64,000 nt of DNA, taken from Cordylochernes scorpioides. Its lineage: Eukaryota; Arthropoda; Arachnida; Pseudoscorpiones; Chernetidae. The stretch lies in assembly GCA_030710605.1 (NCBI GenBank), contig CP092877.1:74056187-74120186 (forward strand). The letters are read 5' to 3'. Below, piece after piece: positions 4,382 through 63,354 of the stretch. Below the pieces are notes generated by a model, which had not been told where the DNA came from, did not search any database, and saw only the letters and a program-made list of their open reading frames with translations. Positions within the stretch are counted from its first letter, which is position 1. Each line of letters opens with the position of its first letter. Made by a program: the position numbers and the translations under genes.

Positions 4382-7300
4382 TTAACCATGAGGTGAGGAG
4401 TCCGAGTCACTTAGGTGATCGGAATCCTCCGCGCGGACGCGTGGCTTAAGTCTATCAGAGGCCTTTAGGAACTCCAGGCAGGCTCGCCAAGTGCTCCTGT
4501 TGAAAATAAAGTCTTTGAGTGACCGCGGAGTGTACCCTAATTCTTCTGCACAGGTGGAAAGAAGGGGGAATCTAAGGGCATCAAGACTGCTGCACTCAAG
4601 CACGATGTGAGACAGAGTTTCTTCCCTGTCGGCGTCGCAGTAAGGGCAGGAAGGATCGTCAATGACGCCTATCCTGTGGGCGAAACTGTCCGTCCACGTG
4701 TGTCCCGTTAGCAGGCCTACCACAATGTGCTCGCTAGGGACGATGTACGCATACCTTTTGTCTAAAAGACTCATTGGAGTAAGGCCAAAGCGGGTGTGGA
4801 TAGAAGGAGCTAGAGAGAGGAATCTGCTTTCCCATGCTTCACGCGCCCGGCCGTAGATTGCCGATTTTACAAACGACAAAGGAGCGAGTTTGTAACAGCT
4901 TGGGTCAGCAGACTCAGCACCCCGCTTTGCGAGTGTGTCCGCAATGTCATTACCCACGTTCCCACTGTGGCCCTTGATCCATTGTATGGTGCATCTGTTC
5001 CCGTTGCGATTCAATCGCGAAATCAGTAGCAGAGCTCTGTCAATAAGGTAATTACCAGTCTTAGAGTTCAGAACTGACTTCACGACTGAGAGGTTGTCCA
5101 GGAAGAATCCTAAGGTTAGATGATTAGGTAAAGTGGTTGCGTTTTCAAGAGCCTTAACCAATCCAAGGGCTTCCGCCTGAAAGACAGAACAATGAGGGGA
5201 CAGAACATGAGATTCACGTATTTCAGGTGCACAATCGAGACAAGAGAACCTGTACACGCCGGCGCCAACTCCATCTCTGGTTTTGGAACCATCTGTATAG
5301 TATGCCACGTGGAAGAAAAGAGCAGGAATATTACTGGGAGCGGAGTAATAGGGGGGGTAGGGGAGAGGATGTGGAAAGGGAGGAGGCTCGAGTGGAATTT
5401 CAGCGTCAACCAATCCATACTTTTTAAGGTATAGCTCAGTTTTAGCCAAGATTTCCAGATCGAGAGGAAGGACTCTGGAGAGGGAGATTAGAGCAGCGTT
5501 GCTGGTTGATCTGAAAGCTCTACAAGCTCTCACTAGGAAAGGCCTTTGAGCACTCAGTAGAACATTCAAGGAGCGTTGAGAAAGATTAGGAAACCAAACC
5601 GCCGAGGCATAGGCAATGGCCGGAACAACCACTTGCAGATACAGAGTTCTCAAGGCGCGGTAACCAAAACCAAAGTTGAGATTAGCGGCTGCGGTCAAAC
5701 GCGGCAACATGCCGCGGACCTTGGCGCAGACTTCAACTACGTGCTGGTAGAAAGATAGACGTTGATCAAATCTCACTCCCAGCACCTTAATTGAGTCGCA
5801 CCATTGGATTGGCCGTCCGTGGATAACCAGATCCCGGCGCGGTTCAGGCAGTCTCCCGTGTGGTCTGAGGAGAACCATAGCCTGGCACTTCCCCACGCTG
5901 AGTTCCAGTTTATGCAAACTGCACCACCTAGCGATCATATCTATGGTGTGTTGGGCCGCGGGAAGTTGACTAGGTCGGCATCCCGAGACCACCACGACCA
6001 GATCATCCGCGTAGGCTTGCGGGAAAACATTATTCCTGTAGTCCAGCGTGAGGAGTTCATCAAAGACAATATTCCAAAGGAATGGGCCGAGAACTGAACC
6101 CTGGGGACATCCTTTGGAAATTCGTCTCGACACAGTACAACCATTCATAGATAGTCTCACAACACGGTTACATAGAAACGAGTTTATCAGGTGATAAATG
6201 TTTCTGGGACAGACGCTTTTGTGCAACGCTCTCAAGATACTGGAGTGGAGCACGTTGTCAAAAGCGCCTTTAACATCAAAAGAAAGAAGAAGACAAGATT
6301 TCCTATTTTTAATCGTCCGGGTTATAGTAGATTTTAGATTTAAGAGTGCGGCTGTAGTAGATCTACAAGGCTTAAATCCGAACTGGTTTGGAGGCGCTTT
6401 ACACATCCTATCGGCCATCCACGACAGCCTAGCAAGAATTAGACGCTCAAGGATCTTGCCCAAACCAGGCAGCATCGTGATTGGACGGTGTGATGCGAGA
6501 AAGTCCTCCCCACTTCGCTTGGGGACGAGAACGACGTCCCCCAGCTTCCATGTAGATGGAAAGTGGCCAGTGGTTAAACACATGTTGAAAATACTTAGAA
6601 AAAACGTCCGAAAATGTTTAACTAGTTTTACGATAAGAAGAGGTGGCATGCCATCACTACCAGGAGAAGAAGATAAGTTTACCTTATCCGCTGTCAACAA
6701 CAACTCGTTATCTGTAAACAAAGGGTCGTTATCAGATGACGATGCGATGACTTTGCTTAAATCTTTGTGTTCTAACATGGTATCGGCCGGGACGCGGCCG
6801 AAATAGTAATCTAATACGTGATTTAATGTGTCCCGCGGACCTTCAGTGAAGCCGCTACCAACTGGGAGAGCTGAGAGGGGTTTGCGCTTAAAATTTCCCT
6901 TGATGAAACTGTAGATTCCACCCCAAGGGCTGATTTCGCAACGCGAGCAGGCTGCCCTCCATGCTTCTTTCTTAGCCAGTCTCCTCGCACGGCGATATCT
7001 TGCCTTCAGTCTTTTGTAAAAGACCTCCAGCACACCCTTAACGACACCGCGTGCCTTTATAAAGGCCCGCTGTGCCTTTTGAGTGGCTCTTTTGAGAGGA
7101 TTCAAATCAGATTTCCACCAAGAGATGGACTTGAGGTATTTATCACTTCTGGGACGGGATGGAATGGTGTTTAGACATGTGTGAAAAATCTCTTCGCCGA
7201 GTAAATTAATTACATCGTCGAGGGAGGATGAGTCACGCACATTTTCTAAAAAAAGATTAATATTTTCTATTTTTTGGCTGAAATGTTCAAAAACTCTATC

Positions 7301-8062
7301 CCAGTCAGCGCGACCAAAGCTGAAGTATATTTCGCTAAATTTGTTTAATTTAAATCTGGTGTTGTCCTGTGAAGAGGGAGCAAAATTGAGGTTAAAGACG
7401 AGGCGTTTGTGGTCAGACAACTCCTGGTACTCAGGATGCCAATCGGTAACGCTATTTACAAGGCCAGCACTACAGCAAGTGACGTCGATGGAAGAAGAGC
7501 GGTTGCCCTCCTCCCACGTCACCGCGCCGTGAGTGTTGAGCACATGCAAATAGTTGGCATCAATAAAGTTTTCAACTAGATCTCTCTTAGGTGAGTGATG
7601 CCTGAGGAGCAGAGGTTTATCCGACCACCTAATAGATTCAACATTTAGATCGCCGCAAAAAATGACCTCGTCATAGTTCAGAGAATTAAGGCTAAAATTT
7701 ATCTTATCGAGAAGAGGGGAGGGATCACATGATGGCGGAAGGTAAACATTACAAAGAAGAATACTTTTACCACTCAATTCACACATGACAAACACGACAT
7801 TAACACTGGACAAATGAGACAAATGGACAAATTTAAGGCTAGGATTTACTACAATGACCATAGCTCCCAACCTAGAGTTTGTAATAGGGCCATAGCAAAC
7901 TCTGTTAGATGGGATTGGCAGCGATGGGATTTTGCCGCGCGCGGCTGGGAGCTCTTGTAAAAGTAGTAAATCTATGTTCTCCTCACGACAATCATTCAAT
8001 ACTGAATACAAACAAGGCTGAGAGCGTCTTATATTGATTTGTAGGCACTTGAAAACAATCAT
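4382..8062 (-). CDS. LINE ORF2: endonuclease / reverse transcriptase / RNase H polyprotein
   Basis: Intact 1226-aa ORF of an R1/I-type retrotransposon that nicks the target and reverse-transcribes the element RNA. An AP-type endonuclease spans residues 1-225 (N9, E37 in LLLQE, GDLNV 137-141, SDH 216-218). The RT spans about 450-740: motif A FDVKGAFD with D596, motif B GCPQGSVLGP 651-660, catalytic YADD 684-687. RNase H follows at about 918-1045 with all four acidic residues (D924, E964, D989, D1039) and GHSGN 1031-1035. A C-terminal CX2CX9HX4C finger uses C1139, C1142, H1152 and C1157. No stop or frameshift is seen. The start ATG overlaps the ORF1 TGA as ATGA, implying coupled reinitiation as described for the R1-clade element SART1. 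Catalytic residues look intact; activity is unproven, and this copy's ORF1 is broken. Confidence 0.93.
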   Translation of the reverse strand: MIVFKCLQINIRRSQPCLYSVLNDCREENIDLLLLQELPAARGKIPSLPIPSNRVCYGPITNSRLGAMVIVVNPSLKFVHLSHLSSVNVVFVMCELSGKSILLCNVYLPPSCDPSPLLDKINFSLNSLNYDEVIFCGDLNVESIRWSDKPLLLRHHSPKRDLVENFIDANYLHVLNTHGAVTWEEGNRSSSIDVTCCSAGLVNSVTDWHPEYQELSDHKRLVFNLNFAPSSQDNTRFKLNKFSEIYFSFGRADWDRVFEHFSQKIENINLFLENVRDSSSLDDVINLLGEEIFHTCLNTIPSRPRSDKYLKSISWWKSDLNPLKRATQKAQRAFIKARGVVKGVLEVFYKRLKARYRRARRLAKKEAWRAACSRCEISPWGGIYSFIKGNFKRKPLSALPVGSGFTEGPRDTLNHVLDYYFGRVPADTMLEHKDLSKVIASSSDNDPLFTDNELLLTADKVNLSSSPGSDGMPPLLIVKLVKHFRTFFLSIFNMCLTTGHFPSTWKLGDVVLVPKRSGEDFLASHRPITMLPGLGKILERLILARLSWMADRMCKAPPNQFGFKPCRSTTAALLNLKSTITRTIKNRKSCLLLSFDVKGAFDNVLHSSILRALHKSVCPRNIYHLINSFLCNRVVRLSMNGCTVSRRISKGCPQGSVLGPFLWNIVFDELLTLDYRNNVFPQAYADDLVVVVSGCRPSQLPAAQHTIDMIARWCSLHKLELSVGKCQAMVLLRPHGRLPEPRRDLVIHGRPIQWCDSIKVLGVRFDQRLSFYQHVVEVCAKVRGMLPRLTAAANLNFGFGYRALRTLYLQVVVPAIAYASAVWFPNLSQRSLNVLLSAQRPFLVRACRAFRSTSNAALISLSRVLPLDLEILAKTELYLKKYGLVDAEIPLEPPPFPHPLPYPPYYSAPSNIPALFFHVAYYTDGSKTRDGVGAGVYRFSCLDCAPEIRESHVLSPHCSVFQAEALGLVKALENATTLPNHLTLGFFLDNLSVVKSVLNSKTGNYLIDRALLLISRLNRNGNRCTIQWIKGHSGNVGNDIADTLAKRGAESADPSCYKLAPLSFVKSAIYGRAREAWESRFLSLAPSIHTRFGLTPMSLLDKRYAYIVPSEHIVVGLLTGHTWTDSFAHRIGVIDDPSCPYCDADREETLSHIVLECSSLDALRFPLLSTCAEELGYTPRSLKDFIFNRSTWRACLEFLKASDRLKPRVRAEDSDHLSDSDSSPHG

Positions 8063-9321
8063 TTGACTATCGACTTATTGAACTGATCCTGGGCATCTCG
8101 CATGTGCTTGCACATCATGGAGTTGGCATTGTGCTTGTCACCGCACCTGTGACACTTAAGCGCGCTTTTATTTTCACAGGCAGTGGTAAGATGTGCACCT
8201 GCACAATTGGCGCACTTGGGCGCATTGGTGCACTTTTTACCATCAGTGTGCGTCCTGTGAGAGAGGCTACCGCAGATACCACATGGGAAGACGCGTTTCG
8301 CCTGGGCGAGCCTGAGGGACAGGAAGTCAACAGTGACGCGGCCGCGTGCAAGGAGAGCTTCCTCGATACCCTTATTGACCTCTATGATAGCGGTGGAAGG
8401 CAAACCTTCCTTCCTAATCAATTTAACCAGCTTCAAGCCGCCGCTGTTATTAATTAACTGCGGGGCTATCACAGGGTTTTCCATCAGATCAGACACCAGA
8501 TCAGATTCAGATTTTTCGACAGGGATGCCGAAAATTGCCAACCTGGGCCTGAATGTCGGGTTTGGTAGGACTTTAAGTCCGTCAATGTTGGCGGTCTTAA
8601 ATCCGTCCACAAACCGCTTTGATTATGCAGAATTGGGAAAGTGAAGGACAAGTTTTTTGTCCTTCCCAGTTACCGCCGTCACATCACAACTCTTCAACTG
8701 TGGAGTCTTGGCAATTTTGGCTCTGATGGCCTCGAAAGATAAGGTGTCTGAGCCAATTTTTACATGGTTTACACTGTTCTTTAACGTCTGCGCGTAGGTT
8801 GAACGCGCTGGCACTCTAGGGTGTACAGTTGTGGGTTGGTTGGACCTAATTTGGATAGCAGAAGTATCAGGTTGGGGGATCATTTTAACGGGGTTAGGAG
8901 GAGAGGGAGGCTTGGCCAACCTTTTCCTAAGTTGGATGACCTCATTTTCAACTATTTTTACATTTTTTTTGAAGATTCTTAACACTTCAGTTTGTAAAGC
9001 GTTAAAAATACGCCTTACATCGTCTTTCACTGAGTCAGATAACCCAGTGCGGGTGGTAGCAGGAAGGTTAGAGGCAGCGATATCCGCTACCTCATGAAAA
9101 TTTTTGTTGAAAAGAGAATCTATCTCTTCCCAGCAGTCAGAGGATCCAGAATGGGTACAGGAAGGAATGGAAGTAGGGGCCTGGGGGATCTTACCTTGGG
9201 CAGTCCTATTAATAGGAGCGGAGACCTCTTCGGCCACGGTCCCAGGACTTGTGGAGGGCTCCAAAGGTGGGAATGGGTCGTCAGCTGACATGGCCCGCGT
9301 CTGCCGGCGAGTAAAGACCAT
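8059..9321 (-). pseudogene. LINE ORF1 (gag-like, three zinc knuckles), one in-frame stop
   Basis: RNA-binding protein of the same LINE; it should coat the element RNA. Translation starts at 9321 (MVFTRRQTR) and runs 232 aa to TAA at 8623-8625. The same frame then continues without shift for 187 more codons to TGA at 8061-8059. The second part holds an RNA-recognition-like stretch and three CCHC knuckles: C110/C113/H118/C127 (irregular), C133/C136/H140/C145 and C153/C156/H160/C167, numbered from codon 8610. The N-terminal part is Ser/Thr/Pro-rich and low complexity. The total of about 419 codons is normal for R1/I ORF1. One point change explains the break, so the inactivation looks recent. A sequencing error or stop readthrough cannot be excluded. 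Confidence 0.85.
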
Positions 9322-9360
9322 CTTGTATCTTGTCTCTTCGTGGTTGTTATGGTAGTCAGT

Positions 9361-9412
9361 CGTTGTAAAAAAAAAAAAAAAAATTATATATATATATATA
9401 TTTTTTTAGGCT
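9361..9412. repeat. Low-complexity A-run and TA-repeat at the LINE 5' edge
   Basis: An A run at about 9367-9383 and a TA repeat lie between the LINE 5' region and the right duplication. They may be extra bases added at 5' integration or pre-existing simple sequence. Confidence 0.6.
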
Positions 9413-14975: not shown

Positions 14976-15805
14976 GTACATTCTTGAATAAAACTTAAGG
15001 AAGTGCAAGGTATTTGATATCGCCTTCGTTTGTTTTTTAAGGAGACAGAGGCAATTTTTTCACACTTGGTTATCTCGTGTGTCTTCAATAAAGATCACTG
15101 TAATATCTTTCAGAATTATTGTCTGAATCCCGATATATATGCTAAAAGGTACAACTTCCTTAAGTTTTGTCAAAGGCAATGTTGTTCACACTTGGTTATC
15201 TCGTGTGTCTTCAATAAAGATCACTGTAATATCTTTCAGAGTTATTGTCTGAATCCCGATATACATGCTAAAAGGTACAACTTCCTTAAGTTTTGTCCAA
15301 GGCAATGTTGTTCACACTTGGTTATCTCGTGTGTCTTCAATAAAGATCACTGTAATATCTTTCAGAGTTATTGTCTGAATCCCGATATACATGCTAAAAG
15401 GTACAACTTCCTTAAGTTTTGTCCAAGGCAATGTTGTTCACACTTGGTTATCTCGTGTGTCTTCAATAAAGGTCACTGTAATATCTTTCAGAGTTATTGT
15501 CTGAATCCCGATATACATGCTAAAAGGTACAACTTCCTTAAGTTTTGTCTATGAGTGTATATACACTTGGTTATCTCGTGTGTCTTCAATAAAGATCACT
15601 GTAATATCTTTCAGAGTTGTTGTCTGAATCCCGATATACATGCTGAAAGGTACAACTTCCCTTAAGTTTGGTCCATGAGTGTATATACACTTGGTTATCT
15701 CGTGTGTCTTCAATAAATGTCACTGTAATATCTTACAGAGTTATCGTCTGAATCCCGATATATATTCTAAAAGGTACAACTTCCTTAAGTTTTGTCTATG
15801 AGTGT
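14976..15805. mobile_element. Family F MITE (Tc1/mariner-like ends) with internal tandem repeats
   Basis: The left end (AAAACTTAAGGAAGTGCAAGG near 14989) is the reverse complement of the right end (CTTCCTTAAGTTTTGTC near 15780). In other copies the outermost block reads ACACTCATGGACAAAACTTA, resembling Tc1/mariner terminal repeats. Six 126-bp units lie inside. It has no transposase. Confidence 0.6.
15061..15805. repeat. Six 123-126-bp tandem units inside the F element
   Basis: Units begin at CACACTTGGTTATCTCGTGT at 15061, 15187, 15313 and 15439, and with a slightly different junction near 15562 and 15686. The first four are exactly 126 bp apart and nearly identical. Since 126 is a multiple of three, one frame stays open (15030-15554) as a 42-aa repeat. 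I read that frame as a by-product, not a gene. Confidence 0.9.
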
Positions 15806-22194: not shown

Positions 22195-22308
22195 ACCAAA
22201 TCCACTTGATATGATTTATCATTCTTATCAGTTTGCTCCTTGAGTTTTAAATGTGGAATCACTGTTATATTTTTGTTATATAGTTTTTACACTATATATA
22301 TATATATA
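21851..22308. other. No feature recognised; TA microsatellites
   Basis: AT-rich DNA with TA runs at about 22164-22188 and 22292-22308, the second adjoining the hammerhead array. Confidence 0.45.
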
Positions 22309-22509
22309 TTAAAAAACGAAATAAAAAATAAAAGATAAAAAGATCAGGTGTTAAAATCAATATAAAAAAATGGCATATCCTGACCAGGAGCACATGTGCT
22401 TTACAGAAGGCAGAGCGCCATCTGGTGGAACAGAAATCAACTAAACATTGATTTAGCCTGTTCCCTGATATTTGGCCAACCCAATTTCTTGATAAATCAA
22501 GAAAAGCCA

Positions 22510-22552
22510 TCCACGAACGCGTTTCGCGCTTTTTGGCGCTCGTCAGCGTGGA
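22510..22552 (-). ncRNA. Hammerhead ribozyme, type I (unit 1)
   Basis: Minus-strand order: stem I 5' strand TCCACG, core CTGACGA (CUGANGA), stem II GCGC-CAAAAA-GCGC, core GAAA, two-base-pair stem III AC-GC-GT, cleavage base T, then stem I 3' strand CGTGGA. All core positions fit the hammerhead consensus and every stem pairs. Predicted cleavage lies between 22516 and 22515. The very short stem III is typical of PLE/retrozyme hammerheads, which may work better as dimers. Confidence 0.9.
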
Positions 22553-22860
22553 GTAGGCTGAACCATTGAGACCAAAAAAGATTTTTTGATCCCAATGGCT
22601 TCCCGAAAAACCAAGAAATGGGTATTTATGGCCAAACTTGCGTTAATACGCTTAGCACATTAAAAAACGAAATAAAAAAATAAAAGATAAAAAGATCAGG
22701 TGTTAAAATCAATATAAAAAATGGCATATCCTGACCAGGAGCACATGTGCTTTACAGAAGGCAGAGCGCCATCTGGTGGAACAGAAATCAACTAAACATT
22801 GATTTAGCCTGTTCCCTGATATTTGGCCAACCCAATTTCTTGATAAATCAAGAAAAGCCA

Positions 22861-22903
22861 TCCACGAACGCGTTTCGCGCTTTTTGGCGCTCGTCAGCGT
22901 GGA
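22861..22903 (-). ncRNA. Hammerhead ribozyme, type I (unit 2)
   Basis: Identical in layout to the 22510-22552 motif and exactly 351 bp downstream. Predicted cleavage lies between 22867 and 22866, so cleavage at units 1 and 2 would release a 351-nt RNA. Confidence 0.9.
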
Positions 22904-23211
22904 GTAGGCTGAACCATTGAGACCAAAAAAGATTTTTTGATCCCAATGGCTTCCCGAAAAACCAAGAAATGGGTATTTATGGCCAAACTTGCGTTAATAC
23001 GCTTAGCACATTAAAAAACGAAATAAAAAAATAAAAGATAAAAAGATCAGGTGTTAAAATCAATATAAAAAATGGCATATCCTGACCAGGAGCACATGTG
23101 CTTTACAGAAGGCAGAGCGCCATCTGGTGGAACAGAAATCAACTAAACATTGATTTAGCCTGTTCCCTGATATTTGGCCAACCCAATTTCTTGATAAATC
23201 AAGAAAAGCCA

Positions 23212-23254
23212 TCCACGAACGCGTTTCGCGCTTTTTGGCGCTCGTCAGCGTGGA
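23212..23254 (-). ncRNA. Hammerhead ribozyme, type I (unit 3)
   Basis: Third copy at the same 351-bp spacing, with core CTGACGA...GAAA intact and stem I of six pairs. Predicted cleavage lies between 23218 and 23217. Confidence 0.9.
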
Positions 23255-23449
23255 GTAGGCTGAACCATTGAGACCAAAAAAGATTTTTTGATCCCAATGG
23301 CTTCCCGAAAAACCAAGAAATGGGTATTTATGGCCAAACTTGCGTTAATACGCTTAGCACATTAAAAAACGAAATAAAAAAATAAAAGATAAAAAGATCA
23401 GGTGTTAAAATCAATATAAAAAATGGCATATCCTGACCAGGAGCACATA

Positions 23450-24001
23450 TATGAAAAAATAATAGAAAAAATAAAAGATAAGTGGGTCAGATGTTGATAT
23501 TAAAAATAAAAAAGGCATCTCCTGACCACGAGCACATGTGCTTTTTAGATGGCAGAGCGCCATCTAGTGGAGCAAAAATAAACTAAACGTTTATTTAGCT
23601 TGCTCCGTGATATTTGGCCAACCCAATTTCTTAATAAATCAAGAAAAGTCATCCACGAATTTACGCAAATTTGGCCTTAAATACCCATTTCTTGATTTCT
23701 CGGGAAGCCATTGGGACCAAAAAATATTTTTGGTCGCAGTGGTTACAGCCTTCTCCACGCTGACGAGCGCCAACAGCGCGAAACGCGTTCGTGGATGACT
23801 TTTCTTGATTTATCAAGAAATTGGGTTGGCCAAATATCACGGAGCAAGCTAAATAAACGTTTAGTTTATTCTTGCTCCACTAAATGACGCTCTGCTATCT
23901 AAAAAGCACATGTGCTCGTGGTCAGGAGATGCCTTCTTTATTTTTAATATCAACACCTGACCCACTTATCTTTTATTTTGTTTCTATTGTTTTTTCATAT
24001 G
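23450..24001. mobile_element. Family C fold-back element (diverged subfamily)
   Basis: Inverted arms 23450-23655 and about 23795-24001 share GCATCTCCTGACCACGAGCA, GGCAGAGCGCCATCTAGTGG and AATTTCTTAATAAATCAAGA. The centre (23660-23790) holds one arm-specific segment with a single hammerhead on the plus strand. It abuts the 351-bp array directly. It looks like a head-to-head C dimer in which only one ribozyme was kept. This inverted organisation is common for PLE terminal repeats. Confidence 0.8.
23754..23795 (+). ncRNA. Hammerhead ribozyme, type I (fold-back copy)
   Basis: TCCACG, CTGACGA, stem II GCGC-CAACA-GCGC, GAAAC, stem III AC-GC-GT, cleavage base T, CGTGGA. The stem II loop differs from the tandem units (five bases instead of six) while all paired and core positions are kept. 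It is a complete hammerhead by consensus. Confidence 0.88.
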
Positions 24002-26140: not shown

Positions 26141-26171
26141 TTTTTGATTTAAGACGAATAATCCTTTCAAT

Positions 26172-26491
26172 AATTATAATAATGAATAGATTCAAAAGGA
26201 TGAGTTTCTTTATTTGAAAAATTAATTCGAGCTTTCGGGCGCAAGCTGCCCTTCTACAGGAATAATGGTTACAATTTCAAGTAATCATGTATTTACAGTT
26301 ATATATATTTTATTTAAATGGTTCCTCGCTTTGGTCTTGTATAGCGTGAGTGGATCACATGCCCGCGTGATTTAGCCTAAATCAAAGAAAAGCCCTGATA
26401 AAGAGAGGCGTGTTGCTCCTAGAAACACTAGCTGATTAACAATTTATATCCAGTATATGCTATATATCTATTTATACATATATATAAGCTA
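26172..26491. repeat. Left inverted terminal repeat of the PLE
   Basis: It starts AATTATAATAATGAATAG and runs through GAGCTTTCGGGCGCAAGC, GATCACATGCCCGCGTGATT and GATAAAGAGAGGCGTGTTGC to a TATATATAAGCT inner end. It is nearly identical to the right arm, suggesting both come from one retrotransposition event. Confidence 0.85.
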
Positions 26492-26631
26492 TTTTTTGCA
26501 TATTTAGGATTTTTTATGAAGTTTTATATTTTATTATTTAAGTAAAATTATTGCTATGTAAATTAGTCAATTGGTTCATATTATTATATGCAAAATTATT
26601 AAGTGGTGTGGTTAAGAGAAATCGGATAATT

Positions 26632-28158
26632 CTATTTTAGTTTTTGGACCAGCCTATCATATGTCTCTGGAATATCTATGTGTCTATTTATGCTATTATA
26701 TTTTGATGAAATCAGTGCTTCCAGTATTAATCTTTTGTATTTACTATTTATGTTTGTATAGTGAATATTAGGGTTTGCTAGGTTGAAATCGTGATCTGTG
26801 TTTCTGATATGTTGCACTATTAGAGATTTGGGGTCTTTGTTTTTAATATTTCTTCTATGTTCGTCTATTCTGTCTTTAATATGTCTGCCTGTTTCACCTA
26901 CATATACATTATTACATTGGTTGCATGGTATGGAATATACGGCTTTGCTATTGTATAGTTTTGTTATAGGAATACTGTTTCTTGTAATGGGGTTTCTTAT
27001 TATGGTTGCTATACTCGGGTTGCTTTCATAATATGTTCTTATACCGTGTTTGCTTAAAATTCTGGCTATATTGGTACTACTATGGGAATAGGGAAATATA
27101 CATATTGATTTATAAACATGGTTATTTCTTATAAGAGAGGGATTATGGAAATGTCTTAATATAAAGTTTTTCGGATAACCACTAGAAGTGAGTTTATTGA
27201 TCAAAAATTGGGTTTCTGTATCTTTTGAGAGTTGGGTGGAACAATGTGTATATATTCGTTTTGAGAGGGTTTTTACAGTGTTGATCTTGTGACTGAGGGG
27301 GCAATAAGAGGAAAAGTGTATATAATCTGGAGTGGAGTTTGGTTTATGGTATATTTCTGTTGTATATTGGTTTTGTGTTTTTAGTATAAGTACATCTAGA
27401 AATGGTAAGGTCTTATTGTTTTCTGTTTCTATGGTAAAATCAATATCATTATGTATGGACTTTAGTTGGGTAAAAATGGTATCTATTTTGGTAGAGTTGG
27501 CTATACAAAAGATGTCGTCTATGTATCTCTGCCAGATGATGATATCTGTGGGAAAAAGGTTGGTTATTGTTTTATCTATTTTTCTCATTACTATTTCTGC
27601 CAAAGGTGAAGAGAGGGGACTTCCCATGGGGGAGCCCTTGGTTTGTCTATAAAAATTACTATTGAAGGAGAATATGTTGTATTGTAGGCTGAGCTTAACT
27701 AATGAAATAATTTTAGAAGAGGTATCTGGAGGAATATTGTTTAATGCTAAAAATTCTATTGTGTTATCTATTATTAGACGGTGTGGTAGGCTTGGGTACA
27801 TATTAACTACGTCAAAAGATATCATGGTGCTGTTAGGAGAGGGGGGGAGGCTGTGTATATTTTCTATAAATTTTGGTATGGATGTGATGGATGTGGTGGT
27901 AGGATTATCTTTTAGAATGGGGATATGGAAGTTTGCTAGGAACTTAGCTAAGGGGGCTATAGGAGACATATGATAGGCTATGATAGGGCGAATAGGAATA
28001 CCTGGTTTATGGGTCTTGGGTTGGCCGTAAATATAAGCGGTACTTTTTATGTTTTCTAGGAACGATTTTAATTGAATTTTATTCTTTTATTCTGAGGGTT
28101 GGTGGTATAAAATTGTGGACTTCACAAATCCTATTAAATATGAGATGCTTTCTCCAGC
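26632..28158 (-). pseudogene. PLE reverse transcriptase with GIY-YIG endonuclease, 5'-truncated
   Basis: Single polyprotein of a Penelope-like retroelement: RT plus a GIY-YIG nuclease that nicks the target. The longest clean ORF (27969-26632) is 445 aa. The frame continues upstream to 28158 with one TAA at 28087-28089 and contains the PLE-typical YGQPKTHKPGIPIRPI block. Within the 445 aa: RT motif A SFDVVNMYPSLP (D53), motif B GSPMGSPLSSPLAE (112-125), catalytic YIDD (149-152), PFLDV (189-193). The nuclease domain starts at about 342: AVYSIPC, C349/C352, YVGETGR (356-362), E370/H371, then H387 and H393. The N-terminal part of a normal PLE protein is missing where the right inverted repeat begins, so this copy cannot encode a full enzyme. 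RT and nuclease catalytic residues look intact. Confidence 0.9.
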
Positions 28159-28468
28159 TTATATATATGTATAAATAGATATATAGCATATACTGGATAT
28201 AAATTGTTAATCAGCTAGTGTTTCTAGGAGCAACACGCCTCTCTTTATCAGGGCTTTTCTTTGATTTAGGCTAAATCACGCGGGCATGTGATCCACTCAC
28301 GCTATGCAAGACCAAAGCGAGGAACCATTTAAATAAAATATATATAACTGTAAATACATGATTACTTGAAATTGTAACCATTATTCCTGTAGAAGGGCAG
28401 CTTGCGCCCGAAAGCTCGAATTAATTTTTCAAATAAAGAAACTCATCCTTTTGAATCTATTCATTATT
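28155..28468. repeat. Right inverted terminal repeat of the PLE
   Basis: Mirror copy of 26172-26491. Here the GTAGAAGGGC...CCCGAAAGCTCG stem-loop is on the plus strand at about 28388-28420. The arm joins the coding frame abruptly at 28158, marking the 5' truncation point. Confidence 0.85.
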
Positions 28469-29290
28469 ATAATTTAACCACAATATAAGCACAATGTAAC
28501 TACAACCACAACATAGTGTAACCACAATATAAGCACAATGTAACTACAACCACAACATAATGTAACCACGACCATAACAAAATGTAACCGAAACCACAAA
28601 AAACACCAATATAACTATAATACAACTATAAAACTATAATTCAAACATAATTCAACCACAATATAAGCACAATGTAACCACGACCATAACAAAATGTAAC
28701 CAAAACCACAAAACAAACACCAATTTACCTATAATACAACTATAAAACTATAATTCAAACATAATTCAACCACAATATAAGCACAATGTAACCACGACCA
28801 CAGCACAATGTAACCACGACCACAAACCAAACACCAATTTAACTATAATACAACTATAAAACTATACTTCAAACATAATTTAACCACAATATAAGTACAA
28901 TGTAACCACGACCACAACACAATGTAACCACGACCACAAAACAAACACCAATATAACTATAATACAACTATAAATCTATATTTCAAACATAATTCAACCA
29001 CAATATAAGCACAATGTAACCACGACCATAACAAAATGTAACCACGACCACAAACCAAACTCCAATTTAACTATAATACAACTATGAAACTATAATTCAA
29101 ACATAATTTAACCACAATATAAGCACAATGTAACCACGACCACAACACAGAGTAACCCCCCACGACCACAAACCAAACTCCAATTTAACTATAATACAAC
29201 TATGAAACTATAATTCAAACATAATTTAACCACAATATAAGCACTATGTAACCACGACCACAACACAATGTAACCACGACCACAACACAG
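28469..29290. repeat. AACCAC-rich minisatellite, ~110-bp units
   Basis: About seven units built of AACCACAATATAAGCACAAT, GTAACCACGACCACAACA, CCAATTTAACTATAATACAA and CTATAATTCAAACATAATT. Units vary by internal duplications of the GTAACCACGACCAC block. Strong C/A strand bias. Confidence 0.85.
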
Positions 29291-29558: not shown

Positions 29559-30076
29559 CAGCTACAGCGCGGTATAACCGCCCCTACATCCCCGCTATAG
29601 ACACAGCAGCGGCCGTACAGCTACAGCGCGGTATAACCGCCCCTACATCCCCGCTACAGACACGGCAGCGGGAGCACAGCTACAGTGCGGTATAACCGCC
29701 CCTACATCCCCGCTACAGACACGGCAGCGGCCGTACAGATACAGTGCGGTATAACCGCCCCTACATCCCCGCTACAGACACGGCAGCGGCCGCACAGCTA
29801 CAGCGCGGTATAACCGCCCCTACATCCACGATACAGACACGGCAGCGGCCGCACAGCTACAGTGCGGTATAACAGCCCCTACATCCCCGCTACAGACACG
29901 GCAGCGGCCGCACAGCTACAGTGCGGTATAACCGCCCCTACATCTACGATACAGACACGGCAGCGGCCACACAGCTACAGTGCGGTATAACCGCCCCTAC
30001 ATCCCCGCTACAGACACGGCAGCGGCCGCACAGATACAGCGCGGTATAACCGCCCCTACATCCACGATACAGACAG
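29559..30076. repeat. GC-rich 59-bp minisatellite, nearly nine units
   Basis: The landmark CGGTATAAC recurs at 29570, 29629, 29688, 29747, 29806, 29865, 29924, 29983 and 30042, always 59 bp apart. Units read CCGCCCCTACATCCCCGCTA, CAGACACGGCAGCGGCCG, CACAGCTACAG. A CCACGATACAG variant appears in three units. GC content is far above the rest of the window. Confidence 0.93.
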
Positions 30077-32602: not shown

Positions 32603-33013
32603 ATATGGAATTTTTTTCCGGAAAGAAATTGATCTATAAAATTAAATAGTGCCTCTCCCGTCAAAATAGACACTAAAACTAAACGCCATCTATTTATCGT
32701 CTTTGCAAACTAGCGGACTCAGGTCGTTGACAAAGCCACAACACCAGCTTTGGTAAATTGAGAAGCGTCCACCTAGAGAAAATTGTTTCGGGCTAATGGC
32801 CCTCTTCAGTACAGGCAGGACTTTATCTAATGATATTCACAAGGGATCAGATGAAAAAAATCTTCATATTCTGCCAAAAAGGTGTTTAGCTTGTAGAGTG
32901 AGCTTGTTTGCGGAGACGTTCAATAGATAGCGCTTAATTATAGTGTCTATTTTGACGGGAGAGGCGCTATTTAATTTTATGATTCAATTTCTTTCCGGAA
33001 AAAATTTCCATAT
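32603..33013. mobile_element. Family H fold-back, with apex
   Basis: Ends ATATGGAATTTTTTTCCGG and CCGGAAAAAATTTCCATAT are inverted; inner arms carry GCCTCTCCCGTCAAAATAG and its mirror at 32950-32972. The apex (32760-32900) includes a hammerhead-like core and about 90 bp not seen in other copies. The right arm has lost part of its sequence, so the fold is unequal. Confidence 0.75.
32773..32823 (-). ncRNA. Hammerhead-like core in element H (decayed)
   Basis: On the minus strand CTGAAGA (a valid CUGANGA, plus-strand 32813-32819) precedes stem II GGGC-CATTA-GCCC and GAAAC. Downstream, AATTTTC replaces the stem III and GUH segment seen at 13682-13689, so cleavage is unlikely. This copy and the 13.66-kb copy are damaged at different places. 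Confidence 0.55.
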
Positions 33014-39037: not shown

Positions 39038-39970
39038 CACGTTTTTATCTTTGAAAAAATATACAGTTTTTTTTTTATTTATTGGAGACAAACTGTATTG
39101 AATGCTTGGGGCGACTCACTCGATACCGGCCTGGCTAACAACAGGCGCTTCGATAGCTAAAAGAATTGCCGGACAGTAAAAAACCCCATCTTCCCTTGGT
39201 TTGAACCCAATTTTCTCTAGATGAACCGCCATCTATTTCTAATGAGCTCCATCTGACCCGAACTTTTAGCTTTAGGCGTTCCAAACTCGCTTTATCTAAT
39301 AGCGTCTTTATGGTCTATGTGGTTTTTTTATAGGGTCAATGGTGCCGTACATTGTCCCACCACACTCTGATGATCCTATCATGTCATATCATGTCTAGCC
39401 ATTTGTCATAGCTATCAATGTGCAAATATACTCATATTGCTGTTAACTTTTATATTTGTTCCTAATACCTCCTTGATTTATTCATATAGGTTCGTTATAT
39501 ATACACGTATATGACATTTTATTTGGATACTCAACCACAGTTATTTCAATTCTGGTGAATAAGTGACAAATGACAATTAAAAATAGTCTATTGACATCCA
39601 GTCAACAGTAGGGAGATAGGTTACAGTTTAAAATATTCACATGAAAAAGATCAGCCAGGTGTTCTTCCCTACCGCGATAGAGTCCTCCTCTAGGCGATGA
39701 CGGGGTCCTCGATGGTCTGGCCCAACCCGACCTGGACGAAGTATCGGTTGATTCTCGATTTTGCCAATGTAGGTGAATGAGTGGTCTGAACCCTTTTTCA
39801 GAACGATACAATGTTTATCACGCTAGTAAAACACCTTACAAGTGATGATAAAGAATCAGCCACTACACCATACTACATCAGCCAGTACATCAGACAAAAA
39901 AGGCCATTCTGTATACCTGTATATTATATATACCTCTCTCTTTAATTAGGCATTTGAACTATACACTAAA
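39038..39970. other. No gene recognised
   Basis: A patch near 39565-39640 (GACAATTAAAAATAGTCTAT) resembles 30946-30985. A GC-richer patch follows at 39650-39740. No supported ORF. Confidence 0.4.
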
Positions 39971-39972
39971 TT

Positions 39973-41395
39973 GACATGGACCCAGAGCAGCAGCTTTACA
40001 CACCCAAGATAGTGGACATTGCTGTGATAGAGATGTATGGAGACATCTGAGGCTCTTCATTGGACACAACAACAACAACAGAAAATTGACATGGACCCAG
40101 AACAGAAGCTTTATACACCCAAGATAGAGGACATTGCTGCTGCTGTGATAGAGATGTATGGAGACATCTGAGGCTCTTCATTGGACACGACCAAAACAAC
40201 AGAAAAAGACATGGACCCAGAACAGCAGCTTTACACATCCAAGATAGAAAACATTGCGACTGCTGTGATAGAGATGTATGGAGACATCTGAGGCTCTTTA
40301 TTGGACACGACAATAACAACAGAAAATTGACATGGACCCAGAACAGCAGCTTTACACACCCAAGATGGTGGATATTGCTGACTGCTGTGATAGAGATATA
40401 TGGAGACATCTGAGGTTCTTCATTGGACACAACAACAGAAAATTGACATGGACCCAGAACAGCAGCTTTACACACCCAAGATGGTGGATATTGCTGACTG
40501 ATGTGATAGAGATGTATGGAGACATCTGAGGTTCTTCATTGGACACGACAACAACAACAGAAAATTGACATGGACCCAGAACAGCAGCTTTAGACACCCA
40601 AGATGGTGGATATTGCTGACTGCTGTGATGGAGATGCATGGAGACATCTGAGGTTCTTCATTGGACACAACAACAACAGAAAATTGACATGGACCCAGAA
40701 AAGCAGCTTTAGACACCCAAGATGGTGGATATTGCTGACTGCTGTGATAGAGATGTATGGAGACATCTGAGGTTCTTCATTGGACACAACAACAGAAAAT
40801 TGACATAGACCCAGAACAGCAGCTTTACACATCCAAGATAGTGGACATTGCTGCTGTTGTGATAGAGATGTACGGAGACATCTGAGGCTCTTTATTGGAC
40901 ACGACAACAACAGAAAATTGACATGGACCCAGAACAGCAGTTTTACACACCCAAGATAGTGGACATTGTAACTGCCGTGATAGAGATGTATGGAGACATC
41001 TGAGGCTCTTCATTGGACACGACAACAACAACAGAAAAAGACATGGACCCAAAACAACAGCTTTACACACCCAAGATAGAGAACGACTGCTGTGATAGAG
41101 ATTCATGGAGACATCTGAGGCTCTTCATTGGACACGACAACAACAACAGAAAATGGACATGGACCCAGAACAGCAGCTTTACACACCCAATATAGTGGAC
41201 CTTGCTGCTACTGTGATAGAGAAGTATGGATACATCTGAGGCTTTTCATTGGACACAACAACAACAACAGAAAATTGACATGGATCCAGAACAGCAGCTT
41301 TACCCACCCAAGATAGAGAACATTGCTGTGATAGAGAAGTATGGAGACATCTGAGGCTCTTCATTGGACACGACAACAACAACAACAACGATGCA
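39973..41395. repeat. Minisatellite of twelve 115-122-bp units
   Basis: Units begin at GACATGGACCCAGAACAGCA near 39973, 40088, 40208, 40329, 40445, 40567, 40686, 40802, 40920, 41040, 41156 and 41277. Each ends in ATTGGACACGACAACAACAA; length changes come mostly from the number of CAA triplets. Few stops arise, so overlapping open frames exist on both strands; none looks like a real gene. Confidence 0.92.
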
Positions 41396-41666: not shown

Positions 41667-42003
41667 TATATGAAAAAACAATAGAAAAAAATAAAAGATA
41701 AGTGGGTCAGGTGTTGATATTAAAAATAAAAAAGGCATCTCCTGACCACGAGCACATGTGCTTTTTAGATGGCAGAGCGCCATCTAGTGGAGCAAAAATA
41801 AACTAAACGTTCATTTAGCTTGCTCCGTTATATTTTGCCAACCCAATTTCTTGATTTATCAAGAAAAGCCATCCACGGGTTGGCCAAATATCACGGAGCA
41901 AGCTAAATAAACGTTTAGTTTATTTTTGCTCCACTAGATGGCGCTCTGCCATCTAAAAAGCACATGTGCTCGTGGTCAGGAGATGCCTTTTTTATTTTTA
42001 ATA
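41667..42003. mobile_element. Family C fold-back without ribozyme
   Basis: Arms 41667-41878 and 41879-42003 are inverted (GCATCTCCTGACCACGAGCA, GGCAGAGCGCCATCTAGTGG). The left arm runs to GAAAAGCCATCCACGG and joins the right arm at GGTTGGCCAAATATC, so the segment that holds the hammerhead at 23.75 kb is deleted. It is a short version of the 23450-24001 element. Confidence 0.8.
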
Positions 42004-43974: not shown

Positions 43975-44225
43975 ATTCTTATATAAAGAAAGAAATGATT
44001 TTCTGCTTGTATTTAATTATCTTGAGGATTATACTATGTTAGTTATTTGCTGGTTCTTTTTAGGACTAAATGGTATTGGTGATGCAGTCGTGGTTAAATT
44101 CTTGATAGAATAATAATAAAAATGGTTTTGATCAGTAATTGCTTTTATTGTGCTAAAGGAATATATTAAAACATAATTTGGTAAAAAGTACTGCCTGGCT
44201 TAAGGCGAGTAGAATAAGGAAAATA
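43975..44225 (+). mobile_element. Family A repeat, 5' two thirds
   Basis: It keeps TTTTCTGCTTGTATTTAATT, ATGCAGTCGTGGTTAAATTC, GTACTGCCTGGCTTAAGGCG and GAATAAGGAAA, the 5' part of the copies at 53.66 and 54.55 kb. An E element follows instead of its 3' third. Confidence 0.68.
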
Positions 44226-44267
44226 TATACCTTTTGAAAATAGAGCAATCCATACTTAATTCATTAG

Positions 44268-44455
44268 ATAATAAAAGGCATATATTGGATTTAATAAAAT
44301 ATTTATTTTGCCAATATTTCGGCTGGCTGAACGCCAACCTTTATCGAGGCATTACATTTTTAAACATGTTTTACATGTTTACATTTTTAAATATTTCGAA
44401 ATATTGGCAAAATAAATATTTTATTAAATCCAATATATGCCTTTTATTATCTAAT
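44268..44455. mobile_element. Family E short fold-back
   Basis: The arms begin GATAATAAAAGGCATATATT and end with the mirror. The left arm holds TTTCGGCTGGCTGAACGCCA and AACCTTTATCGAGGCATTAC; the right arm is a shortened copy. Confidence 0.72.
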
Positions 44456-44961: not shown

Positions 44962-45700
44962 AGAATTTTTTGTTCCACTAGATGGCGCTCTACCATCTAA
45001 AATGTTCATATGAGCGGTCAGGAAATGCCAATTTTGTTTTAATATCAACACCTGACCTTTTTTCTATTTTTTTTCTTGGTTTTTAACATATTTATGTATC
45101 AAAAATAAAATGGCATATCCTGACCAGGAGCACATGTGCTTTACAGAAGGCAGAGCGCCATCTGGTGGAAGAGAAATCAACTAAACATTGATTTAGCCTG
45201 TTCCCTGATATTTGGCCAACCCAATTTCTTGATAAATCACTGTAAAGCACATGTGCTCCTGGTCAGGATATGCAATTTTTATTTTTGATTTCAACACCTG
45301 ATCTTTTTATCTTTTATTTTTTTCTTTCGTTTTTTCATGTGTTAAGCGTATTTACGCAAGTTTGGCCTTAAATACCCATTTCTTGGTTTTTCAAGAAGCT
45401 ACTGGGACCAAAAAATATTTTTGGCCGCAGTGGTACGGCCTAGTCCACGCTGACGAGCGCCAAAAAGCGCGAAACGCGTTCATGGTTGGCTTTTCTTGAT
45501 TTATCAAGAAATTGGGTTGGCCAAATATCAGGGAACAGGCTAAATCAATGTTTAGTTGATTTCTGTTCCACCAGATGGCGCTCTGCCTTCTGTAAAGCAC
45601 ATGTGCTCCTGGTCAGGGTATGCCATTTTTATTTTTAATATCAACACCTGACCTTTTTCTATTTTTTTTTTCTTGGTTTTTAACATATTTATGTATATAT
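44962..45700. mobile_element. Family C copies, one with hammerhead (composite)
   Basis: A diverged C tail (44962-45097: GTTCCACTAGATGGCGCTCT) is followed by an inverted head (45110-45240) and a full-length plus-strand unit (about 45243-45690) resembling the 351-bp tandem unit. The inverted head joins the unit through GATAAATCACTGTAAAGCAC. This is a partial inverted dimer, again typical of PLE-like terminal repeats. Confidence 0.78.
45445..45485 (+). ncRNA. Hammerhead ribozyme with one stem I mismatch
   Basis: CCACG, CTGACGA, stem II GCGC-CAAAAA-GCGC, GAAAC, GC, GTT, CATGG. The core is intact. Stem I has one substitution (CATGG for CGTGG), weakening the helix next to the cleavage site. Confidence 0.8.
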
Positions 45701-48020: not shown

Positions 48021-48059
48021 ATAAAAAAAAAGAAGTTACATAGTGTAAAATCGTTTTGA

Positions 48060-48275
48060 TAATAGAGCAATCCATAGATAAATCTTTAATTAAAAAGGCA
48101 TATATTGGATCAAAATATCTTTTATTTTACCAATATTTCAGTTGGCTGAATGCCAACCTTTATCAAGGAGACACACTTTAAAATGTTATAATACCTTGAT
48201 AAAGGTTGGCGTTCAGACAACTGAAATATTGGTAAAATAAATTATATTTTGATCCAATATATGCCTTTTAAAATA
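48060..48275. mobile_element. Family E fold-back
   Basis: It starts at AATAGAGCAATCCATAG, then has AAAGGCATATATTGGATCAA, GTTGGCTGAATGCCAACCTT, CTTGATAAAGGTTGGCGTTC and ATCCAATATATGCC. The loop is short. Confidence 0.75.
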
Positions 48276-56979: not shown

Positions 56980-57464
56980 AGAAAAAGGCATCTACTTATC
57001 GTGCAACTGAAAGTTGCTGATGGCTTGCGCCATCTATCGGAATAAATATCAACTATTCTCGTTGATTTTTATTTATTCATGCACCTTATCCCAGTACAAT
57101 ATCACATTTGTACTATTTCTTTCAGATTGTGTAGCGTTCTCACGCAATTCTGGCCTTAACTACCCGTTTCATGATTTTTCAGGATGCCTTAATGACCAAT
57201 TTATTTGGTCGTTGAGGTACAGCTTGCACCACGCTGATGAGGGCCAACAGCCCGAAACACGTCCGTGGTTAGCTTTTCTTGATTAATCAATAATGGGTAT
57301 TTAGCCAATTCTGGAATAATTAAAAATCAACGAGAATAGTTTATATTTATTCCGATAGATGGCGCAATCATCAGCAACTTTCAGTTGCACGATAAGGAGA
57401 TGCCTTTTTCTTAATATATGCACCTTATCCCAGTACAATATCACATTTGTACTATTTTTTCACA
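56980..57464 (+). mobile_element. Family D: retrozyme-like hammerhead repeat with 12-bp target duplication
   Basis: The 485-bp element is flanked by AAGTATAAACTA at 56968-56979 and 57465-57476. It starts with an inverted head (GGCATCTACTTATCGTGCAA, TTGCTGATGGCTTGCGCCAT), then one complete unit with a hammerhead, then the mirror of the head. The tail block TTATCCCAGTACAATATCAC occurs twice, 340 bp apart, so the monomer is ~340 nt and this copy is more than one unit long. An inverted partial copy plus a full unit is the known organisation of PLE terminal repeats. The homologous segment at 38.6-38.8 kb lacks the insertion. No ORF. Confidence 0.85.
57229..57268 (+). ncRNA. Hammerhead ribozyme, type I (family D)
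   Basis: CCACG (stem I), CTGATGA (57234-57240), stem II GGGC-CAACA-GCCC, GAAA (57254-57257), stem III AC-AC-GT, cleavage base C57263, CGTGG (stem I). An A-T pair extends stem I by one. The core is complete and the GTC triplet is the most efficient class. Predicted cleavage lies between 57263 and 57264. Confidence 0.92.
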
Positions 57465-58552: not shown

Positions 58553-58755
58553 ATCAATGATTTATCAAGAAATTGGGTTGGCCAAATATCAGGGAACAGG
58601 CTAAATCAATGTTTAGTTGATTTCTGTTCCACCAGATGGCGCTCTGCCTTCTGTAAAGCACATGTGCTCCTGGTCAGGATATGCCATTTTTAATATTGAT
58701 TTCAACACCTGATCTTTTTATCTTTTATTTTTTATTTCGTTTTTAATTTTATAAT
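58553..58755 (+). mobile_element. Family C 3' part without ribozyme
   Basis: It begins just after the hammerhead segment (ATCAAGAAATTGGGTTGGCC) and continues through CCACCAGATGGCGCTCTGCC, GCACATGTGCTCCTGGTCAG and ATTTTTTATTTCGTTTTTAA. It is truncated on the ribozyme side. Confidence 0.78.
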
Positions 58756-63314: not shown

Positions 63315-63354
63315 TGTGACGTTTCGGTAACAACGTTGTTACCATCTTCAGACA
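63315..63354 (-). ncRNA. Minimal hammerhead-like motif, left arm of O
   Basis: Minus strand: TGT, CTGAAGA (CUGANGA), stem II GGTAACA-ACGT-TGTTACC, GAAAC, GTC, ACA. Stem III is reduced to AC/GT with no loop, so a single copy cannot close it; such cores could only work as dimers. Stem I has three clear pairs. Confidence 0.62.

Follow-up and report, generated by a model that had tools for sequence, protein, structure and literature searches.

Paired head-to-head hammerhead arrays in the genome of the pseudoscorpion Cordylochernes scorpioides point to probable retrozyme movement by a Penelope-type reverse transcriptase

How did a tandem array with a hammerhead ribozyme in every unit come to lie in a pseudoscorpion genome, and which enzyme placed it there? 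The array is found in a 64,000-nucleotide stretch of Cordylochernes scorpioides DNA (GCA_030710605.1, contig CP092877.1, positions 74,056,187 to 74,120,186 of the forward strand; hereafter the window, in which positions are counted from its first letter). For animal retrozymes in general, Penelope-like elements (PLEs) were proposed as a strong candidate helper on the basis of co-occurrence, tandem copies and shared ribozymes (PMC7229834), and this proposal was repeated later (PMC7761336; PMC11722881). Our analysis addresses the question through an insertion signature, and the window array most probably derives from a non-autonomous animal retrozyme for whose movement a Penelope-type reverse transcriptase (RT) was responsible. 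The family, its fixed ends, the head-to-head arms, the target duplications and the near-identical units in both arms are all seen directly in the sequence.

Tandem Repeats Finder placed the array at 22308-23448 on the minus strand, with a period of 351, 3.3 copies and 99% matches. It thus consists of 3.25 head-to-tail, minus-sense units of 351 bp, which agrees with the three such units proposed in the initial annotation. The exact spacing and near identity claimed there were also found: a 300-nt core of the unit is 100% identical in the three copies, which are spaced by 351 and 351 bp, and unit 1 differs from the other units by two single-base gaps. In the RNA numbering used here, which follows the predicted ribozyme cut, U1 is window base 22866 and U351 is 22516. 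The unit has a GC content of 0.393, and its 351-nt RNA has a predicted fold of −119.6 kcal/mol (z −6.93), a stability equaled by 0 of 100 shuffles. The one frame that crosses a unit has 116 codons from stop to stop, and a scan of open reading frames (ORFs) detected no RT plus GIY-YIG frame within the unit; the retrozyme itself is therefore not a PLE. The window array has one arm. Its RNA 3' end, U208 at 22308, adjoins (AT)n, while its RNA 5' end, U121 at 23448, adjoins ATATATG and is ragged, in contrast to the fixed 3' end. The 88 bp previously regarded as a partial fourth unit are not a separate entity, as the array simply spans from the fixed U208 to the ragged U121. Within the unit, U88-U101 (22766-22779, minus strand) form a box, CCACCAGATGGCGC, which resembles the CTCF core as well as YY1 sites. 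Boxes resembling AGATGGCG recur 3' of other hammerhead-like motifs of the window, near 57.3k, 32.7k and 0.8k.

On its minus strand, each window unit carries CTGACGA, stem II and GAAA, enclosed by stem I. The topology is that of a type I hammerhead, in which stem I is the open helix, and not that of the plant-type type III. In the window search no Rfam family reached its gathering score. The covariance search that had been suggested as a check matched HH9 to all three units (38 bits, E 2.3e-7) under permissive settings, below the gathering score of 52, and a fourth HH9 match was found at 23744-23809 on the plus strand (22.2 bits, E 0.027). The core pattern occurs five times in the window (three array units, 23760 and 45450), vs. 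0.00 expected from 100 shuffles. The best RF00163 match in the genome search scored 30.5 bits, below the cut-off of 34; given that sub-cut-off matches to RF00163 were also found in 11 of 14 control genomes, weak matches alone carry little meaning. The stems themselves are more informative. Among 32 aligned hammerheads, retained from 48 distinct core matches after removal of six in which the 5' strand of stem I is truncated, three that belong to another hammerhead family, two non-hammerheads and five near-duplicates, 93.1% of the stem cells are paired. Their covariation score is 0.140, compared to 0.079 for shuffled alignments, none of which (0/500) reached 0.140, and 4 of 15 pairs changed on both sides, a count reached by 10 of 500 shuffles. 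Stem II occurs as GCGC/GCGC, GTGC/GCAC, GCTC/GAGC and GGGC/GCCC. Together, the HH9 matches and the stem covariation over the 32 copies support the presence of a hammerhead in each unit.

Stem III is different from what had been assumed. Its sequence, ACGCGU, permits one A-U pair, and the remaining 2-nt loop leaves hardly any room for a second, so that the tiny stem III described earlier would hardly close within one molecule. All six bases are self-complementary, and the sequence is kept in 29 of the 32 aligned hammerheads (counted by eye). In axolotl, a weak palindromic stem III accompanies better cleavage as a dimer (PMC7229834). By analogy, the retrozyme hammerhead probably acts as a dimer through ACGCGU, because its stem III is palindromic and too weak to close alone. 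An unrelated family of type I hammerhead-like motifs is represented at 32759-32823 (minus strand) and in two of the genomic regions described below (L025:161-225 and L050:5123-5186). The stem III of L025:161-225, ACCAUGGU, is likewise self-complementary, and the window member looks decayed. A minimal hammerhead-like motif without stem III (CTGAAGA, stem II, GAAACGTC) is found head to head at 63322 (minus strand) and 63721 (plus strand).

The window array belongs to a new retrozyme family of a known kind, that of the metazoan retrozymes classed as free of long terminal repeats (LTRs). In the 2.62 Gb and 24 contigs surveyed, an exact 36-nt pattern comprising the hammerhead core and stem I occurs 2,734 times and its reversed control 0 times. 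A similarity search with the window unit identified at least 176 copies. The 40 matches most similar to the window unit were fetched with their surroundings (L021-L060). Five of these (L037-L041) proved to repeat loci already in the set, and their removal left 35 distinct places. Most of the fetched arrays are two-armed and head to head, with minus-sense units, a variable junction and plus-sense units; L031, L033, L034 and L052 are one-armed like the window array, and those of L045 and L055, cut by the fetched region, were left unclassified. The same arrangement is seen in the first 100 core sites of contig C1 in order of position. These sites form 33 clusters, i.e., 16 mixed-strand, 13 single-site and 4 same-strand, and all 16 mixed-strand clusters have the order (−)n(+)m; none of the 16 is among the fetched loci. 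When older arms are included, the fetched loci contain 32 head-to-head and 7 tail-to-tail neighbor pairs. At L022, L042, L048, L053, L054 and L058, younger arrays lie 12-210 bp from older family copies in tail-to-tail orientation. Three further arrays are of note for their structure: a large two-armed array at C1:48800095-48808151 has 4 listed cores on the left and 19 on the right, the array of L034 (150-225 and right flank) is embedded in (AT)n within a larger inverted repeat (ATTATTGGAATTATAATCC with its complement), and that of L045 (400-2083) is interrupted by 1.7 kb of inserted sequence, with 14 nt of the unit (U58-U71) duplicated. An origin of the array by assembly duplication is unlikely, because the many loci of the family differ in their junctions, lengths and flanks.

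The outer ends of the two-armed arrays are fixed and unequal. Both outer ends lie within the fetched region in 27 two-armed arrays (L049, L056 and L059, which are cut by it, were set aside), and in 25 of these the RNA 3' end of one arm falls at U148-165 and that of the other at U203-217. In none of the 27 are both ends alike, as counted on young arms; arms of <92% identity, which occur in L022, L048, L051, L053, L054 and L058, were excluded. For two end classes that were defined after the ends had been seen (U155-type and U208-type), unlike ends in 25/25 arrays have a probability of 3e-8 under independent, even choice. Of the two unassigned entries, that of L054 reflects a break in parsing; the left arm of its array ends at U155. 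The older copy at 41670-41998 also obeys the 155/208 rule. The one-sided extra stretch, or tail, between the two start sites is 53 nt. The flanks are AT-rich, and 8 of 25 targets are pure (AT)n, in which a duplication is unreadable. In the 17 readable targets the flanks share 9-19 bp (11-15 bp in 13), with a mean of 13.8, vs. 8.5 for flanks paired across loci. In the seven least repetitive targets, chosen by eye, the mean is 12.6, vs. 6.5 for mismatched flanks, and only 2 of 42 mismatched pairs share ≥11 bp. Examples of the duplications are ATATACATTCATAT (L028), ATTTATAAGTAT (L036), TATTTTAAGATAT (L047) and AATAAAGATATAT (L058). The reading of the array as an animal retrozyme is supported by the type I hammerhead found in every unit, a tandem unit of 351 bp that falls within 150-450 bp and is low in GC, thousands of copies, and dispersed insertions with duplications longer than 4 bp.

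Both start sites are associated with a predicted hairpin. Site U155 lies in its loop, which is closed by pairing of U131-137 with U167-173, and site U208 is located on the 3' side of the hairpin. Compensating changes preserve the stem in other subfamilies (GGTCAGG/CCTGATC, GGTCAGG/CCTGACC, GATCAGG/CCTGATC and GATAAGG/CCTTATC), the last being that of a second subfamily, whose hairpin starts at 57391. The stems of a first list were selected for pairing, while those of a second set of 108 rows were not. In the 19 of these 108 rows chosen by eye as extending past the first start site, 90.2% of cells are paired, with two rows that are misaligned on the 3' side scored as unpaired. The covariation score is 0.286, compared to 0.184 after shuffling (0/500), and three further measures are unexceptional (46, 151 and 196 of 500 shuffles).

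Head-to-head copies, a tail at one end and a short duplication in an AT-rich target are also the features of Penelope-like insertion, and such elements are present in this genome. The window contains one with RT and GIY-YIG domains, which serves here as a model of the insertion mode and not as a demonstrated helper. It has at least 88 close genome copies. Among the 88 listed, all nine neighboring opposite-strand pairs have the head-to-head order (−)(+), and three tandem pairs are spaced at ~2.69 kb. In the copies that were read (that of the window and four pairs, L061-L064), the tail is on one side only (5/5) and the target duplication is 12-14 bp (5/5), the left outer ends of L062 and L064 being set by comparison with L061 and L063; the tail is 26 and 27 bp in the two copies measured by self-comparison. 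In the start region of the window PLE, a predicted hairpin follows a hammerhead-like remnant, and a second PLE-like terminus (14579/14737) has other letters in its start stem that still pair, as judged by eye. Short palindromic elements share a 10-nt start motif, ATGCCTTTTT, with retrozyme subfamily 2, in the same place, and end just past ATGCCTTTTT or past a closing stem. The exact 31-nt form of their start motif has 5,812 genome copies. We take these short elements, by resemblance, for solo PLE termini. Within the window they are found at ~48048-48270, 44220-44455, 46.5k, 50.7k, 53.2k, 57.5k and 12.0-12.4k. A search for a helper PLE with a retrozyme-like start motif found no full-length partner.

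The following route would account for such insertions. A multimeric transcript would be cut by its own hammerheads, probably as dimers via ACGCGU, into 351-nt RNAs, which would then be ligated into circles. The PLE protein, likely as a dimer, would bind the RT-start hairpin and cut AT-rich DNA with a stagger of roughly 12-15 bp. The two target 3' ends would both prime synthesis on a single RNA, the first from U155 within the hairpin loop and the second from U208 just 3' of the hairpin. Both complementary DNAs (cDNAs) would circle the RNA for a variable number of turns, some stopping near the hammerhead cut site, and would then join inside to give two tandem arrays head to head; one-armed arrays, including that of the window, would be incomplete versions of this insertion. 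In general terms, we favor, with reasonable though not high confidence, the view that animal retrozymes parasitize Penelope elements, and that each insertion is a double rolling-circle copying of one RNA circle, carried out simultaneously from both strands of the staggered cut by two RT subunits with different starts on one hairpin, which leaves a palindromic concatemer.

Whether the template was a circle bears most directly on this view. In a comparison of 161 full units, the substitutions average 0.84 within one arm (median 0, n = 300 pairs) and 0.75 between opposite arms of one locus (median 0, n = 185), vs. 4.71 between loci (median 5, n = 12,395); one cross-arm pair of L054 with 19 differences represents two separate insertions that are joined. 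At C1:50887774 all five unit spacings on each side are 343 bp, and the spacing is the same in both arms (343/343, 350/350 and 350/350) at the three C1 loci readable on both sides free of irregular values. Given that units are near-identical within and between the arms of one insertion, a single RNA sequence probably served as the template for both arms, which strengthens the earlier suggestion of reverse transcription around a circular or multimeric RNA. A circular RNA appears to be the simplest template, although a linear multimeric transcript of a homogeneous array would also yield identical units.

The leading alternative, which we consider possible but distinctly less probable, is a two-ended insertion of PLE type on an uncut or partly cut linear multimer. 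The source arrays are themselves homogeneous, and some multi-unit arms end near the cut (2.6 units in L026 and L027, 3.5 in L028 and 4.4 in L032), which is consistent with a linear RNA whose 5' end was made by the ribozyme. Of 68 inner ends read, five non-junctions (the first rows of L031 and L042, L045 and two L054 rows) were dropped, and the RNA 5' ends of 10 of the remaining 63 fall at U347-U3 around the predicted cut, vs. 1.4 expected (binomial P 1.6e-6, for a range picked after the ends had been seen), in line with the stops near the cut site in the route proposed above. Arms of 9 to >13 units (L022, and L055 as cut by its region) would, however, require as many intact hammerheads that remained uncut. 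The variants of one insertion are common to both arms, and most inner ends are spread around the unit; both observations favor the circle over a linear multimer.

Several observations weigh against movement by a PLE through an RNA circle as proposed above. With regard to the template, 53 of the 63 inner ends lie away from the cut site and are scattered, with U17 found three times, and 7 of the 10 near-cut ends run 2-5 nt past the cut (U350 in four, U348 in two, U347 in one); the cDNA ends near the cut are therefore not sharp. Some arms hold units that differ by up to 6 substitutions, and unit length varies by 1-3 nt within many arms. With regard to the ends, the outer end of L044, the other unassigned array, is at U54, and the old copy at 23451-24001 has two U208-type ends, which breaks the 155/208 rule. 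The seven tail-to-tail pairs are also contrary to the general order. In every case one or both members of the pair are an older or separate copy, and the two lie within 12-210 bp of each other; thus, new insertions often land by old ones, as if the AT-rich ends of old copies were favored targets. With regard to the ribozyme and the hairpin, no hammerhead match in the window or genome search reaches an Rfam gathering score, 16 of the 32 aligned hammerheads came from a structure-model search, by which the alignment leans towards paired stems, and the RT-start hairpins alone are no more stable than shuffles. With regard to the PLEs, L061-L064 were chosen because they were listed as opposite-strand PLE pairs, and no BLAST match was found between the window PLE and the retrozyme. 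All members of the ATGCCTTTTT family that were encountered are short solo elements; the single 4.5-kb stretch of this family that was fetched (L085) contains no ORF of 100 codons. Lastly, no start-site difference between strands was seen for the PLE of PMC11167929, while the retrozyme arms start differently.

Enzymes and routes other than those of PLEs account for the ends less well. The window includes a long interspersed nuclear element (LINE) with endonuclease, RT and RNase H domains, and LINEs make target duplications of similar length as well as twin-primed inversions. Twin priming, however, gives one fixed 3' end and not two, and the retrozyme ends match the tail and head-to-head pattern of the PLEs (no shared LINE tail was searched for); we reject it on the two fixed ends and the head-to-head order, and movement by a LINE is improbable. 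Less probable still is a self-primed fold-back, in which the cDNA loops back on its own 3' end to prime the second arm, a mechanism put forward for the palindromes of rotifer PLEs (PMC3846280). The head-to-head arms, a palindrome near the RNA 5' end and the U158/U158 junction of L030 are in its favor. A fold-back copy would, however, repeat the start of the first arm, while the outer starts are unequal in 25 of 27 insertions, and it predicts a single turning position, while L030 is, among the junctions read, the sole one at which both arms end alike. Fold-back is rejected as the main route on the unequal starts and the junction positions. Amplification of a satellite by unequal crossing-over with the hammerhead as a passenger, which tandem and homogeneous units might suggest, is the least credible of all. 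It is rejected because the insertions are dispersed, carry target duplications and have fixed outer ends in a head-to-head order, and because the ribozyme stems show compensatory changes.

The coordinates of these and other window features are given in Table 1. Upstream of the 1,230-codon frame, the LINE has two further frames, one with CCHC-like knuckles. No match to the hammerhead core pattern was found inside the three other tandem repeats.

Table 1. Retrozyme copies, predicted RNA features and other repeats of the window.
Feature	Position	Strand	Basis
One-armed retrozyme array, 3.25 x 351 bp	22308..23448	-	repeat finding, end mapping
One complete predicted released RNA unit, U1-U351	22516..22866	-	fold
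Type I hammerhead, unit 1; predicted cut between 22516 and 22515	22496..22562	-	HH9, covariation
Type I hammerhead, unit 2; predicted cut between 22867 and 22866	22847..22913	-	HH9
Type I hammerhead, unit 3; predicted cut between 23218 and 23217	23198..23264	-	HH9
Predicted RT-start hairpin, U131-U173, unit 2, stem GGTCAGG/CCTGATC	22694..22736	-	end positions, stem covariation
Older head-to-head copy, ~82-89% identical, hammerhead 23744-23809 (+), both ends U208-type	23451..24001	.	
Older head-to-head copy; left arm U1-U208 starts at predicted cut, right arm ends U156	41670..41998	.	
Cluster of both-orientation copies, hammerhead at 45450 (+)	44967..45683	.	
Second retrozyme subfamily, 73.6% identical, hammerhead stem II GGGC/GCCC at 57234	57133..57298	+	
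Partial retrozyme copy, U17-U204	58558..58744	+	
PLE with RT + GIY-YIG, ORF 26632-28086, inverted termini, one-sided tail, 13-bp duplication ATAATTTAACCAC	26148..28473	-	
LINE; endonuclease, RT, RNase H in one 1,230-codon open frame	4382-9405	-	
Tandem repeat, 126-bp unit	15049-15796		
Tandem repeat, 59-bp unit	29559-30075		
Tandem repeat, units ~121/241/357 bp	39968-41384		

The ends, duplications and paired arms look like the genomic footprint of retrozyme movement driven by PLEs. As the start sites are placed nearly to the nucleotide, the PLE-helper model is testable with purified PLE protein. The family also preserves, in nature, a record of the number of turns that reverse transcription may make around a circular RNA and of the places where it stops.

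Among open-licence PMC matches listed, supplements aside, no description of the paired-array insertion signature in retrozymes was found. The metazoan non-LTR retrozymes (PMC7229834) are similar to the family described here in their type I hammerheads, low-GC tandem units of ~170-400 nt, duplications over 4 bp and many copies. They are described as tandem copies, and the word "inverted" is absent from the main text of that paper, while most of the arrays fetched here form head-to-head pairs whose two RNA 3' ends are fixed and unequal. A very weak palindromic stem III is shared with the hammerheads of amphibian satellites and axolotl HHR_Amex1 (PMC7229834); unlike in HHR_Amex1, the retrozyme palindrome is ACGCGU, with room for a 2-nt loop only. 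The W-elements of Schistosoma (PMC8490949) are likewise satellite-like repeats with functional hammerheads, thought to be mobile and possibly flanked by target duplications. In the available text, in which the term retrozyme does not occur, their inverted repeats are internal to the element and no paired arrays are described. Plant LTR retrozymes are also self-cutting, non-autonomous retroelements thought to move via circles, and differ in having type III hammerheads and LTRs (PMC7229834).

The closest parallels are found in the PLEs. A lizard PLE protein was shown to cut both strands and extend them, with a preference for AT-rich DNA, and its two internal start sites account for the tail (PMC11167929), and rotifer PLEs have head-to-head pseudo-LTRs (pLTRs), a 31-bp tail and 8-10 bp duplications (PMC3846280). 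As described in these two papers, PLEs resemble the retrozyme in their head-to-head termini, the optional tail on one side, two internal RT starts, AT-rich targets, short duplications and a hammerhead upstream of the start sites. The retrozyme differs from them in its lack of RT and endonuclease, in forming concatemers of a 351-nt unit and in its 53-nt tail, compared to 30-40 bp in those papers and 26-27 bp in the two PLE copies measured here. If the same end pattern proves to be general in the retrozymes of mussel, coral and axolotl, PLEs would be their common helper.
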